Below, piece after piece: positions 5,362 through 9,820 of a stretch of DNA of 14,143 bases; position 1 is the first letter of the stretch; the number at the start of each line of letters is the position of its first letter. Below the pieces are notes generated by a model. That model had not been told where the DNA came from. It did not search any database and saw nothing but the letters and a program-made list of their open reading frames with translations. The stretch is from Bacillota bacterium (GTDB lineage Bacteria > Bacillota_A > Clostridia > DSM-8532), in the NCBI GenBank assembly GCA_023424865.1, contig JAFADM010000152.1, forward strand, positions 1 to 14,143, given 5' to 3'. The translations under genes were made by a program, and so were the position numbers.

Positions 5362-6486
5362 TCATTCCGACTGGAAAACACGAATGGTATTTTTAACCGT
5401 TTTGGCCTCGTAAAGGGCTTTATCCGTGTTGACGATGAGCTTTGCCGAATCCATCCCCCTGGTATATGTAGAAACACCAAAGCTGGCAGTAAGGGCTATG
5501 CCTGATATTTTTCCAACGGAAACCTGATGAAAGGCCCTTTGAATCTTTTCACAGACGCCGACAGCCTCGTCTACCGTCCTGTTTTTAAACAATATGCAAA
5601 ACTCATCCCCGCCGTAACGGAAAGGAATTGCCTCAAGGCAATGGGCTTTCATAATTTTCCCCAGCTCAATGAGGCAGCGATCTCCAAAAATATGCCCTAG
5701 ATTATCGTTAAGCATTTTAAAATTATCGATATCCAGCATGACAAAAATATAGCTTGACTCCGACTCGTCCTCCTCCATATCCTTAACGGCGTTGTGAAGG
5801 GCTTTTCTGTTATAAATGCCGGTTAATTCATCAATATAAAGCTTTTCCTGCAACTGATGCCTCTCCATTTCCTTCTGAATACTTGCTGCGTTTTTTTCCT
5901 TCTCAAAGCGGATGACAACCATGCAAACAGCGGAAAAGGCTGCGAGTATAAACAAAGCAATAAAGAAATCCACGCGTCTCAGGGTGTTATCAAAAATACT
6001 GACCTTATCGATATCCCACTTAATAAAAACTTCTGAAAGAATAACAGCGGCGGTGCTCATAGCGGAGGTAATGATGGTCAGCCTGTAATTGGCGTAAATG
6101 GTGGTCAGGATAATGGGAATGGCAAAGATGAAATACAGGTTCGTGAAATAAATATGTACGGTAAATAGAACAAAGCATATAACAACAAAGAGCAGCGATA
6201 CAACATAGATTTTCTTTTCCTGAAGCAATTTCTCTGATCCCATAACCCGATAATCAATGTAGACACATGTCAGATTCAGAAAAGCAGGGACAATAATGAA
6301 CTTGATTGTAAAGATAACGGGTGTTGTATTGAGTTCGTCGGAGTGTACAATAAACCAGCCTAGAAAGCATTCTACAAAAACAGACAGCAATACCAGCGCA
6401 ACGGTGGTTTTATAATGCAGATTCAGCCAGTTTTTATCAATACGCGCATATTCATTCTGTATTTCAACAATATGTGTTTTTTCCAT
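5362..6486 (-). CDS. Membrane-bound diguanylate cyclase (six-helix N terminus plus GGDEF)
   Basis: This 374-residue protein probably makes cyclic di-GMP from two GTP at the membrane. Hydrophobic segments lie near residues 26-48, 57-77, 92-113, 115-132, 136-152 and 172-192, followed by a short linker with coiled-coil character (194-215). The GGDEF domain begins with DELTGIYNR at 219, contains the metal-site DIDNFK at 252-257 and an intact GGDEF at 292-296 (RYGGDEF). The inhibitory-site RxxD expected at seven residues before RYGG is absent and reads CLEA, so product feedback inhibition at that site is unlikely. There is no EAL domain. The ATG has GGAG four bases upstream. The gene is transcribed away from the TIR-PDZ gene across a 295-base divergent region. 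The N-terminal sensor does not match a domain I can name. Confidence 0.92.
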   Translation of the reverse strand: MEKTHIVEIQNEYARIDKNWLNLHYKTTVALVLLSVFVECFLGWFIVHSDELNTTPVIFTIKFIIVPAFLNLTCVYIDYRVMGSEKLLQEKKIYVVSLLFVVICFVLFTVHIYFTNLYFIFAIPIILTTIYANYRLTIITSAMSTAAVILSEVFIKWDIDKVSIFDNTLRRVDFFIALFILAAFSAVCMVVIRFEKEKNAASIQKEMERHQLQEKLYIDELTGIYNRKALHNAVKDMEEDESESSYIFVMLDIDNFKMLNDNLGHIFGDRCLIELGKIMKAHCLEAIPFRYGGDEFCILFKNRTVDEAVGVCEKIQRAFHQVSVGKISGIALTASFGVSTYTRGMDSAKLIVNTDKALYEAKTVKNTIRVFQSE

Positions 6487-6718: not shown

Positions 6719-6781
6719 AGACTAGAGTATGTACTAAAATACATGATTAACTTATTGACAGATTGCCTAGGAGAATCATGC

Positions 6782-8731
6782 ATGATTATGGAAATACAAA
6801 ACGCTTCTCCCTATCGCTACAAAGCCTATATTTGCAGCAGCAGGGGCAGTGTGGACGTAAAAACAGCTCATAGCCTCTATTATGAACTTAGTCGCTTCAT
6901 TATCCCGCAGGCTTTTCGAAGCACGGGACAAAACAAGCGTCCAGGTGAGTTTTATCTCAGGCGAGAGGATTCCCGTGAGGGAACGGGGCTTTCAGAAAAG
7001 CTGTGTGAAGCCCTCCATCAATCAGAATACTTAATTGTTGTTTATTCGGGACAATCAGAGGATTCAGCCCGAATGGCTCTTGAAATAACCTATTTTCAGT
7101 CACTGGGAAGAGAAGACCACATTATTTTCGCACTAACCGGCAACAGTCCCGAGGAGCTTTTACCTCAGCCTGTATTCAATCTCAAGTTTGCTTCAATGTC
7201 TTCAGCCCATGCGATGCCCGGCGCAAATGACAGCGATGCCATTCCCGGTCTTATCGATTTGAGAGCCCCCCATTTTTCAGGCAATCTTAAAAAAATGAGG
7301 AAGGAAAAATTCAAGATATTGGCCATCCTATTAAATTGCAGTCATGAAGATCTTCAGCAAAAGCAAGGCAGAAAAAAGACGGGCAGAATTGCACTGGTTG
7401 TTGCAGCCATGCTTCTGTTCACTGTTTCAGCGCTTGCCGGGAATGCTTTTTATCGAAATAAAGCAGAAACTAATCGCCGTGATCAGGTACAAACTGAAAT
7501 TGTCGAAAACATGTCCCACATGGCCCAGCGCTATGACCACATTAATAAGCTGCTTAACCGTACTTTGAGCGAAATAGAAACAGCCAAAACCCAGGCTTCC
7601 CAGGAGGATCCCACCCTTAATCTGGATAAGCTTAAGGATGCCTTTGTGGGAATGTCCGGTGATCTTGTAAACCTTCAAAGCATTTATCCCATTACCGATA
7701 CCCATCTGGATCTTCTCACTGCTCTTTTGGAAGAAAAGAGTGATGAGGCTGTTCAGGAGAATTTGGAAAACTATATTAATCTTATACGTGCCTCGGATGA
7801 AAAGCTTAATGTTCTGGCAAATAAATTCCTTTCCACCTCCGGAAAAATAGATGATCCTGCTTCCGCAGCTTTTGAACTGTCAATGCTTTCACTGGATATT
7901 CAGGGCATACTGGATTTCTACGGAATTATATATTGTGACGCCACACTGCTTCTCCAGGCATTGGACTACAAGGTTGTGCTCGTGGCCGAAGCTAATAATG
8001 ATGCGACTACCCGAAAGCTTCCAGAGGTAAAATCCGGGGACAATTTGGATGATCAGGCTGTTAAAGCCAATGGAACGCTTATTAAAACCATTTTGGGCGC
8101 GTATATTCTTCTGGAAAAAGATCGCCTGACCGAGATGGAAAAGCTGGTAAAGCAGAGGGTTGAAGCCTTATCGCCTCCAACGGGCAATCTTGTTTCACCC
8201 GTAAACACGCCCTTAACCCCTGATGAAACAGACCCGGAATTGTCCGGCTGGTCCATGAACAATACGTATCTTTCCCTCATTACCCTCCTCCCTGACGAAA
8301 CTCCGGATGCCTTGCTTGCCAAAGCCCGTGCCTTGAGGGATTTATTTAAATTTGACGATGCCGTCAAGCTTTACACCCTTTACGGTGAGCGTTTCAAATC
8401 GGTGGATCCTTATGCCTCCGCCTTTTCAAAGGCTGCCGTTATGTTCACCCTCTATCAAAAGGAGTTCGGATCTGCCACCGGTTTATATGTGCTGGAGGTC
8501 ACACCGGACAGTAAAGGGGATAAGGCAGGATTGCTTCCAGGGGATATACTCTTAAGCTATGGCGGAACCAAAAATCTGACGGTTGAAGGCCTTTTATTGG
8601 AAATTGAAAAAAATAAAAGTCAAAGCGCTATTGAAATTGAAGTTTTGCGCTTTGACTCTACCGGGGTTGTTTCCAACACCACATTAATCATAAAGGGAGG
8701 AGCTATGGGGCTGGAGTTAATGCCTCTTTAG
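6782..8731 (+). CDS. TIR domain - transmembrane - helical ectodomain - PDZ protein
   Basis: The chosen ATG has AGGAG eight bases upstream and gives 649 residues; an ATG at 6743 has no ribosome binding site. Residues about 11-150 match the bacterial TIR group that precedes a membrane helix: YKAYICSS (13-20), YLRREDSREGTGLSEKL (58-74), SEYLIVVYS (81-89), SLGREDHIIF (107-116). Glu101 aligns with the TIR NADase catalytic Glu, but the Trp usually nearby is Arg, so activity is uncertain. A basic linker (about 158-202) leads to one helix at 203-223, which places the C-terminal 425 residues outside. The outer part is helical with coiled-coil stretches (about 238-290) and a TPR-like helical pair (about 507-557). 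It ends in an HtrA-like PDZ fold (567-645: GLYVLEV, KAGLLPGDILLSYGG). Probably a transmembrane sensor with TIR output. Ligand and partner are unknown. Its 3' end meets rsgA head-on. Confidence 0.75.
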   Translation: MIMEIQNASPYRYKAYICSSRGSVDVKTAHSLYYELSRFIIPQAFRSTGQNKRPGEFYLRREDSREGTGLSEKLCEALHQSEYLIVVYSGQSEDSARMALEITYFQSLGREDHIIFALTGNSPEELLPQPVFNLKFASMSSAHAMPGANDSDAIPGLIDLRAPHFSGNLKKMRKEKFKILAILLNCSHEDLQQKQGRKKTGRIALVVAAMLLFTVSALAGNAFYRNKAETNRRDQVQTEIVENMSHMAQRYDHINKLLNRTLSEIETAKTQASQEDPTLNLDKLKDAFVGMSGDLVNLQSIYPITDTHLDLLTALLEEKSDEAVQENLENYINLIRASDEKLNVLANKFLSTSGKIDDPASAAFELSMLSLDIQGILDFYGIIYCDATLLLQALDYKVVLVAEANNDATTRKLPEVKSGDNLDDQAVKANGTLIKTILGAYILLEKDRLTEMEKLVKQRVEALSPPTGNLVSPVNTPLTPDETDPELSGWSMNNTYLSLITLLPDETPDALLAKARALRDLFKFDDAVKLYTLYGERFKSVDPYASAFSKAAVMFTLYQKEFGSATGLYVLEVTPDSKGDKAGLLPGDILLSYGGTKNLTVEGLLLEIEKNKSQSAIEIEVLRFDSTGVVSNTTLIIKGGAMGLELMPL

Positions 8732-8740
8732 CCTTAACTC
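8714..8740 (+). terminator. Weak stem-loop between convergent genes
   Basis: GAGTTAA (8714-8720) and TTAACTC (8734-8740) can pair around a 13-base loop that contains the TIR-PDZ stop. A T-rich run (CTTTTT) follows about seven bases later on the plus strand. The stem is AT-rich, so termination would be weak. Only two bases separate the two convergent stop codons, so any terminator here must lie within coding sequence. Confidence 0.3.
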
Positions 8741-9756
8741 TTAACCTTTTTCCCCATTTTCTTAATTTTATCATTCTTTCTTTTTTCAAAGGAAAGCCGT
8801 TCCCGTTCCAGCTTGAGCCAATGCTCCCATCTTTTTTCCGAAAGCCGCCCGCTTCTTAAGGCTGCCTTCACGGCACAGCCGGGTTCCCTCTGATGACGAC
8901 AGTCCCGGAAGCGGCATTGAGCGAAAATTTCCTCCAAATCCTCAAATACCTCCGTCATTCCCTCTCCGCCCTGCCAGAGCTTCAGCTCTCTCATACCGGG
9001 AGTATCCAGGATTAGTCCTCCCCGGTCTAAAACAAAAAGCTGGCGGTTGGTTGTCGTATGCCGTCCCCTGGCATCATCCTCCCGGATTTCCTTTGTCAGC
9101 TGTATTTCCATACCGGCAAGACAGTTTACCAGCGTGGATTTTCCCACACCCGAGGAACCAACAAGCGCTATGGTTTTACCTGGTGAAAAATAGGCTGCCA
9201 GCGCGTCCATATTCTCCTGAGTCACACCGCTTACCCCATGTATATCTACGCCTTTTACAGCATTTCTAAGCTCAAGCAGGCGTTCCTCACTGTCCGGGCA
9301 GAGGTCAATTTTAGTAAAGACAGCTACAGGAACAGCTCCGCTTTCCCACGCTGCAATGAGATAACGCTCCAGCCGCCTGAGATTAAAATCGGCGTTGAGA
9401 GATTGAATGAGAAAAACATAATCCATATTCGAAGCCACTATCTGTTCTTTCGTAACAGTACCGGCTGCCGCTCTTGAAAATTTAGTTTTCCTTGGCAGCA
9501 GACTGGTAATAACCCCATCGGAATAGGTATCGGACCGTTTATAAAGCACCCAGTCACCCACCACCGGCAAGTCATTGCCCTCTGCTAAAGCTGGGGCAGG
9601 GCTTGCAAGGAAGCTGCCCTCCTCGGAAGCCAGACGAAGGCGGTGTCCGAAATCCGTCATCACTCTGGCAGGCCTGCCCTGCTGTTCGACCTGCGCCTTT
9701 AGTGCTTCCTCCAAAAAAGAGTTCCATCCCAAATCGTTTAAATTTATATTATTCAC
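8734..9756 (-). CDS. rsgA: Ribosome small-subunit-dependent GTPase A
   Basis: RsgA (YjeQ/YloQ) is a circularly permuted GTPase that checks late maturation of the 30S subunit. With the GTG at 9756 it has 340 residues. An N-terminal OB-fold region is followed by the permuted G motifs: TKID (G4) at 148-151, GSSGVGKS (G1) at 200-207, RGRHTTT (switch) at 230-236 and DTPG (G3) at 251-254. A zinc site, C281, C286, H288 and C294, closes the protein and is complete. The GTG has AAGGA six bases upstream and gives the family-like start VNNINLNDLGW. An ATG 21 codons earlier (9819) sits directly in the T-run of a terminator and has no ribosome binding site. No clear promoter is seen between that terminator and the gene, so expression may depend on readthrough from upstream. 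Confidence 0.96.
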   Translation of the reverse strand: MNNINLNDLGWNSFLEEALKAQVEQQGRPARVMTDFGHRLRLASEEGSFLASPAPALAEGNDLPVVGDWVLYKRSDTYSDGVITSLLPRKTKFSRAAAGTVTKEQIVASNMDYVFLIQSLNADFNLRRLERYLIAAWESGAVPVAVFTKIDLCPDSEERLLELRNAVKGVDIHGVSGVTQENMDALAAYFSPGKTIALVGSSGVGKSTLVNCLAGMEIQLTKEIREDDARGRHTTTNRQLFVLDRGGLILDTPGMRELKLWQGGEGMTEVFEDLEEIFAQCRFRDCRHQREPGCAVKAALRSGRLSEKRWEHWLKLERERLSFEKRKNDKIKKMGKKVKS

Positions 9757-9820
9757 GCTTAATCCTTCTCCTTTTTCATTCTGACTGCTGAGCCTTACAT
9801 CATTTCTTAAAAACGGCATA

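Follow-up and report, generated by a model that had tools for sequence, protein, structure and literature searches.

A degenerate TIR protein with a membrane helix and a predicted outer PDZ domain in a clostridial genome, and its probable relatives encoded beside proteins with intact TIR motifs

The stretch of DNA analysed here (the window) comprises the 14,143 nucleotides of contig JAFADM010000152.1 from a Bacillota bacterium. At 6782..8731 on the + strand, in a reading frame open from 6743, an ATG at 6782 starts a gene for a 649-residue TIR-membrane helix-PDZ protein of which homologues are known. A likely ribosome binding site, AGGAGA (6769..6774, +), read directly from the sequence, lies 7 bases 5′ of this start. 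The divergent neighbour (5362..6486, −), identified from the list of open reading frames and a domain scan, encodes a GGDEF (diguanylate cyclase) protein and shares no operon with the TIR-PDZ gene. On the other side, the convergent rsgA gene (8734..9819, −) has its last base 3 bases from the TIR-PDZ stop, so that no partner gene would fit there; the TIR-PDZ gene stands alone, with no TIR-helix-TPR gene directly downstream. Promoter and terminator scans gave results at the level of shuffled sequence. Among the matches listed for the dxr protein of the window, the closest came from clostridial genomes (68% for a Clostridiaceae MAG, 67% for Thermoclostridium caenicola). A match to rsgA at E 1e-40 or better was found in 10 of the 33 genomes of the clostridial order-level group, the best being G019 (56%); reading the frames by eye, we saw no TIR gene within 4 kb around rsgA of that genome.

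The N-terminal TIR region (approximately residues 10-160; 6809..7261, +) was delimited by Pfam, tblastn and alignment. In tblastn, an annotated TIR protein of Sinorhizobium matched residues 11-220 (31% identity, E 6e-13) and one of Butyrivibrio residues 11-217 (E 2e-6); homology to TIR proteins follows from these matches together with the alignment and the tree. The Pfam TIR_2 match (residues 58-120, E 9.3e-4) stayed below its cutoff, at 20.1 versus 28 bits. The tblastn-matching part extends past the TIR region through a basic stretch and the membrane helix. The layout of TIR segment, basic linker and single helix proposed in a first-pass annotation of this DNA was confirmed. Its reading of the motifs was likewise correct: Glu101 (codon GAA; 7082..7084, +) is kept, and aligns with the Glu of all 25 non-PDZ rows of our alignment, which we take to be the catalytic one of NADase-type TIR domains. 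Four residues before it, Arg97 (codon CGA; 7070..7072, +) stands in place of the aromatic residue, and the FISYR-type strand reads YICSS.

The membrane helix (residues 203-221; 7388..7444, +) has a Kyte-Doolittle mean of 2.14, the highest 19-residue mean elsewhere in the protein being 1.43, and is aligned in the relatives. A hydropathy scan and K/R counts place a basic stretch at residues 192-202 (7355..7387, +), with GRKKTGR lying just N-terminal of the helix. K/R residues are more numerous N-terminal of the helix than C-terminal of it in 12/12 PDZ rows and 6/6 partner proteins, with a slight bias of 5 versus 4 in the window protein itself. This excess fits a TIR domain that probably resides in the cytosol and a PDZ domain that probably lies outside the cell. 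With TIR, basic stretch, one helix and an outer interaction module, the protein has all the parts of the TIR-membrane helix receptor family. Its outer part (residues 222-562; 7445..8467, +) was delimited by alignment with the relatives, in which it is approximately 200-220 residues shorter. A TPR-like stretch is placed at about residues 510-540 (8309..8401, +) by alignment with two relatives (L117 and L120) of the three scanned, which gave weak, sub-cutoff TPR matches at this point. This is the extent to which the helical outer part described in the first-pass annotation was recovered; the HtrA-like PDZ end described with it was supported by both domain models and the family profile. We found no internal repeat in the outer part; the sole row with E <0.2 consisted of 10 residues common to both query pieces. 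As a separate observation, PADLOC matched 7388-7831 (residues 203-350) to RTasRmuC, an RmuC-like DRT-associated model (E 3.7e-5), a match perhaps owed to the helix together with coiled sequence after it.

The last approximately 87 residues (about 563-649; 8468..8728, +) are predicted by Pfam, the HtrA/DegS models and the family profile to form a PDZ domain. For the single sequence, PDZ_6 (residues 570-597, E 5.4e-6) fell just short of its cutoff (26.5 versus 27 bits), as PDZ_2 did more clearly (21.9 versus 27), whereas HtrA and DegS models matched residues 559-627. Both domains thus scored below their Pfam cutoffs when checked individually, and the TIR region is supported by direct homology, the PDZ domain by the family profile. 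A profile built from the window protein and seven relatives matched solved PDZ chains at E ∼5e-8, Lin2157 being best, followed by a DegP-like protein and DegQ, and the PDZ core residues G587, D588 and I589 are invariant in the eight aligned rows. Among the relatives, L115 passes the cutoffs of PDZ_6 (32.7/27) and PDZ (26.2/23.2), L120 passes that of PDZ_2 (27.3/27) and L117 passes none. At the family level, profile match and conserved GD core mark the C-terminal part of the window protein as a predicted PDZ domain, of the bacterial envelope-protein kind seen in HtrA/DegS and in Lin2157/YlbL-type proteins. Membership of HtrA/DegS itself was set aside: no trypsin-like protease domain matched, the similarity to these models being confined to their PDZ part.

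The kinship with TIR-helix-WD40 and TIR-helix-TPR proteins that had been proposed was borne out by tblastn, alignment and tree. These proteins, several of which are annotated 'toll/interleukin-1 receptor domain-containing protein', share with the window protein an N-terminal TIR of the same family, a basic stretch, one helix at the same place and a C-terminal interaction module; the window protein differs in its PDZ outer module and its degenerate TIR motifs. Bacterial TIR-membrane receptors are known, and the new element is a PDZ domain as the outer module. Our literature search found no paper on TIR combined with PDZ; subscription papers lay largely outside its scope, and it is weak evidence of absence. 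The TIR-like ThsB of Thoeris gave weak matches to the window protein (E 0.005 and 0.014; sub-cutoff in a Pfam-type scan), but ThsB is not known to be a membrane receptor with a PDZ domain. A Thoeris assignment was set aside, as no ThsA-type domain occurred in the eight neighbouring proteins scanned (dxr, cdsA, uppS and clpP lying outside the scan).

The first-pass annotation had called for a search for further proteins in which TIR, helix and PDZ follow in this order, and such proteins exist. With the family profile we detected full-length relatives in 7 of the 33 genomes of the order-level group (G007, G013, G016, G017, G019, G034 and G035). These proteins (L114-L120) are 428-447 residues long and 21-25% identical to the window protein. 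In a class sample of 391 genomes, 35 matched at E 1e-20; six did so at full length, all inside the order-level group, and in the other 29 the match was confined to the TIR-helix part, most of the frames being 800 to 1,250 residues long. In a phylum sample of 398 genomes there were five matches, one of full length (G019). Samples around three further genomes held no full-length relative: 0/345 (three TIR-part matches), 0/345 and 0/348 (four genomes with TIR-part matches). The last of these overlaps the phylum sample, and the middle one cannot show absence because it held no match of any kind. With the top 4 or 5 candidates of each genome scored in these large samples, no full-length TIR-helix-PDZ relative appeared outside the order-level group.

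The protein-database searches each scored the best ∼8,000 candidates. The first, in a set of 5.8 billion proteins, returned only the window protein itself among the 7997 candidates sharing most words; its database cluster holds three member sequences from two contigs. Ten relatives of one group were found in the protein database, nine being 75-100% identical to L117 and one 43%; one of the ten, P0010, diverges inside the PDZ domain. A further protein, P0012, is 53% identical to L115. The first scan of genome contigs and a scan of viral sequences gave no matches, and a phage or plasmid origin was set aside for want of a full-length match in the searches made.

For alignment and trees we used 37 rows picked by hand from a larger set (those omitted include P0002-P0007, P0010, P0014, L081, L092, L093, L096, L098, L121, L122 and L124). 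In a tree of 270 columns, 12 PDZ rows including the window protein fell on one side of a branch with support 98/96. The end branch of the window protein is very long (2.47), and the row of the set to which the protein is most identical (27%) is P0013, which is not a PDZ form. By tree path, the nearest PDZ row is L115, carried by G019, the genome with the best rsgA match; its last residues, GISYLPL, resemble the GLELMPL of the window protein by eye. After removal of the motif and outer columns (156 columns left), the PDZ split persisted but was weak (85/64), and the rows nearest to the window protein by path were of the WD40 type. Because of the long branch and this weak split, the window protein is a probable, not a certain, member of what its sequence suggests is a small conserved TIR-helix-PDZ family, and its PDZ domain may have been gained independently.

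The relatives share the domain order of the window protein but differ from it in length, in having lost the Glu and in having an adjacent partner gene. In 7/7 loci, the start codon of a TIR-helix-TPR gene lies 9-19 bases past the stop of the PDZ gene. The partner gene is complete on the contig in four loci, those of G007, G034, G017 and G016, and two of the seven run off the contig end; the lengths of the four complete products are 880, 878, 603 and 610 residues. In G035 the partner gene (L116:1832-3754) is interrupted: the TIR start is in one frame and the TPR repeats are in another, through either an assembly error or real loss. TIR_2 and TPR_12 scored above their Pfam cutoffs in 3/3 partners scanned, and the full TIR motif is kept in 6/6 partner rows of the alignment. 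The alignment of the PDZ-form profile with the partner of L117 spans columns 8-341 and continues beyond the helix into the outer part (E 6e-22). Because the profiles align past the helix, PDZ form and partner look like the products of a duplication with diverged C-termini (PDZ versus TPR). A PDZ-ligand motif was not conserved at the C-terminus of the TPR partners (five examined).

The loci fall into three gene neighbourhoods, so the seven pairs are not seven independent cases. In L114, L116 and L117, a GH94 gene lies upstream and an M23 peptidase gene downstream; the neighbours in L118-L120 are a gene with a Mur_ligase_C domain, EngA-type GTPases, a tRNA methyltransferase-type gene and a PLP enzyme. 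The Mur_ligase_C gene (175-199 residues) sits just upstream of the PDZ gene (L119:7192-7719, L120:6608-7141, L118:3029-3628) and could form one transcription unit with it. In one of the seven loci, that of G019 (L115:1-8047), Wadjet jetC and jetD immediately precede the pair and are encoded on its strand.

Other TIR-helix genes were seen in company. Two adjacent TIR-helix proteins of 1028 and 1039 residues in G010 (L126:2020-8326) match the PDZ-family profile in the TIR-helix part only, so that tandem arrangements of TIR-helix receptors exist in the absence of PDZ as well. TIR-helix genes with long outer parts on a Butyrivibrio plasmid (L082:5944-10562), in Fusobacterium (L083:5001-9887) and in G383 (L171:1108-3384) each have an adjoining gene on the same strand, downstream in the first two and upstream in the third. 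The C-terminal parts of these adjoining genes are homologous (L171 to L082, E 9e-20; L171 to L083, E 1e-13), and the copy in L082 resembles a ryanodine-receptor chain very weakly (E 0.011); it is possible that signal maker and ADP-ribose-type signal binder are paired here.

The catalytic motif separates the PDZ relatives sharply from the other TIR frames. Among the 37 rows, Glu occupies the catalytic position in 25/25 non-PDZ rows and in 1/12 PDZ rows, namely the window protein. We also counted all fetched loci from L081 on, which gave 117 frames found with a profile from the 37 rows and 64 distinct TIR frames after removal of copies (near-copies remain; the window protein is outside the 64). 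Glu is kept in 57 of these, and the seven without it are exactly the seven PDZ relatives, which carry Leu (four) or Ala (three). In the genome-sample searches, the PDZ-family profile matched none of the 57 over its full length. Because Leu or Ala replaces the catalytic Glu, the TIR domains of the PDZ relatives are probably dead; by its motifs, the TIR domain of the window protein is less degenerate than theirs. The test set by the first-pass annotation, in which Glu101 should be conserved in homologues and the C-terminus should fold as PDZ, gave a divided result: the C-terminal part does match PDZ in the homologues, whereas the Glu is lost in 7/7 of them. Of the three roles it had offered, a working NADase has become less likely and a scaffold or sensor more likely, because the homologues with a PDZ domain lack the equivalent of Glu101.

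The degenerate TIR domains of the relatives are maintained. Their dN/dS (Nei-Gojobori; six pairs, in two groups of three) is 0.12-0.20, which indicates purifying selection, although synonymous differences of 0.51-0.63 put these pairs near saturation. The corresponding values are 0.12 and 0.10 for the partner TIR (two pairs), and 0.07-0.18 for the juxtamembrane part and 0.14-0.34 for the PDZ domain of the PDZ forms.

Domain order, membrane helix, motif loss, the gene pairing of the relatives and the selection on their TIR domains can be read from sequence. A predicted PDZ domain outside and a probably dead TIR inside, beside a protein with an intact TIR motif, would fit a subunit whose task is to recruit an active TIR or to hold it back, and the position of the PDZ gene in front of an intact-TIR partner in the relatives suggests a two-part sensing receptor. 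We consider it about evenly balanced whether the window protein is such a near-dead TIR receptor subunit, sensing through its outer PDZ domain and signalling by TIR-TIR contact to a catalytic TIR encoded elsewhere. It would be a single-pass membrane protein whose PDZ domain and stalk lie outside the cell and recognize an extracytoplasmic ligand, the likeliest being the C-terminus of a protein or an exposed peptide. Having lost most catalytic motifs, its TIR domain would not itself make a signal; we infer that it would instead control, through heteromeric TIR-TIR contact in the cytosol, the assembly of a catalytically intact TIR protein. In the relatives, the adjacent downstream gene would supply that protein, of TIR-helix-TPR type; in the window organism it would be encoded elsewhere in the genome, or may be absent. 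TIR domains that lack the Glu and act by TIR-TIR association exist, according to PMC9153377, and TIR output is described as NAD-derived signals or NAD loss in PMC13232231 and PMC13142454; an NAD-based output of the partner may be supposed. Against the receptor-subunit reading stand the isolation of the gene, the retained Glu101, the strong divergence of the TIR domain, its loose place among the PDZ forms in the reduced tree and the slight K/R margin in the window protein, as well as the derivation of the pairs from three neighbourhoods, with one of seven partners interrupted and two running off the contig. The fuller version, in which a dead TIR whose extracellular PDZ domain reads protein C-termini gates an active TIR-TPR protein in a two-subunit membrane receptor, the window protein being a single-gene branch, we regard as tentative and rather improbable.

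Alternatively, the window protein may itself be a working TIR enzyme: a PDZ ligand would cluster its TIR domains, Glu101 would support NAD cleavage or signal synthesis with no partner needed, and the relatives would have lost the Glu after gaining theirs. Glu101 aligns without gaps with the catalytic-position Glu of intact relatives, the region corresponding to the FRDxEEL loop is of full length in the window protein and two further PDZ rows (the other nine of those 11 rows being four residues shorter), and no partner gene lies beside the gene. However, the residue four before the Glu, Arg97 here, is Trp in 56 of the 57 Glu-bearing frames and Tyr in one, FISYR is replaced by YICSS, and the TIR_2 score is sub-cutoff, all of which makes this enzyme unlikely.

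We also doubt, to a similar degree, that the protein is an envelope sensor or adaptor without TIR-type signalling. PDZ is a usual sensor domain of envelope proteases, and here it would hold or sense envelope or cell-wall proteins while the TIR served as a cytosolic dimerization or anchoring module. The neighbouring genes scanned for six of the seven relatives have metabolic, cell-wall or housekeeping functions, and when 10 neighbours in L116-L120 were scanned against a defence library, only three EngA-type GTPases matched, via the GTPase models LeoA and LeoBC. The full TIR motif of the next gene in every partner row speaks against this proposal, as does the location of the G019 pair just downstream of jetC and jetD. 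A decaying orphan, i.e. a TIR-PDZ gene that has lost its partner and whose TIR drifts under relaxed constraint, would account for the lone gene, the long end branch, the partial motif loss and the protein search that returned only the query, but is very unlikely given the intact 649-codon frame with its good ribosome binding site, the three cluster members on two contigs, the invariant PDZ core and the retained membrane helix.

The role of the receptor subunit that we favour may be either phage defence or envelope sensing. The four complete gene pairs, and the sharp separation of dead from intact motifs, make the two-part idea readily testable. Bacterial TIR proteins are familiar chiefly as enzymes that act inside the cell. 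If the two-subunit reading is true, it would describe an outside-in, Toll-receptor-like arrangement of a pseudo-TIR and an active TIR, and the pair of a dead TIR with an outer PDZ domain and an intact TIR would be a bacterial counterpart of receptor signalling by TIR-TIR contact.
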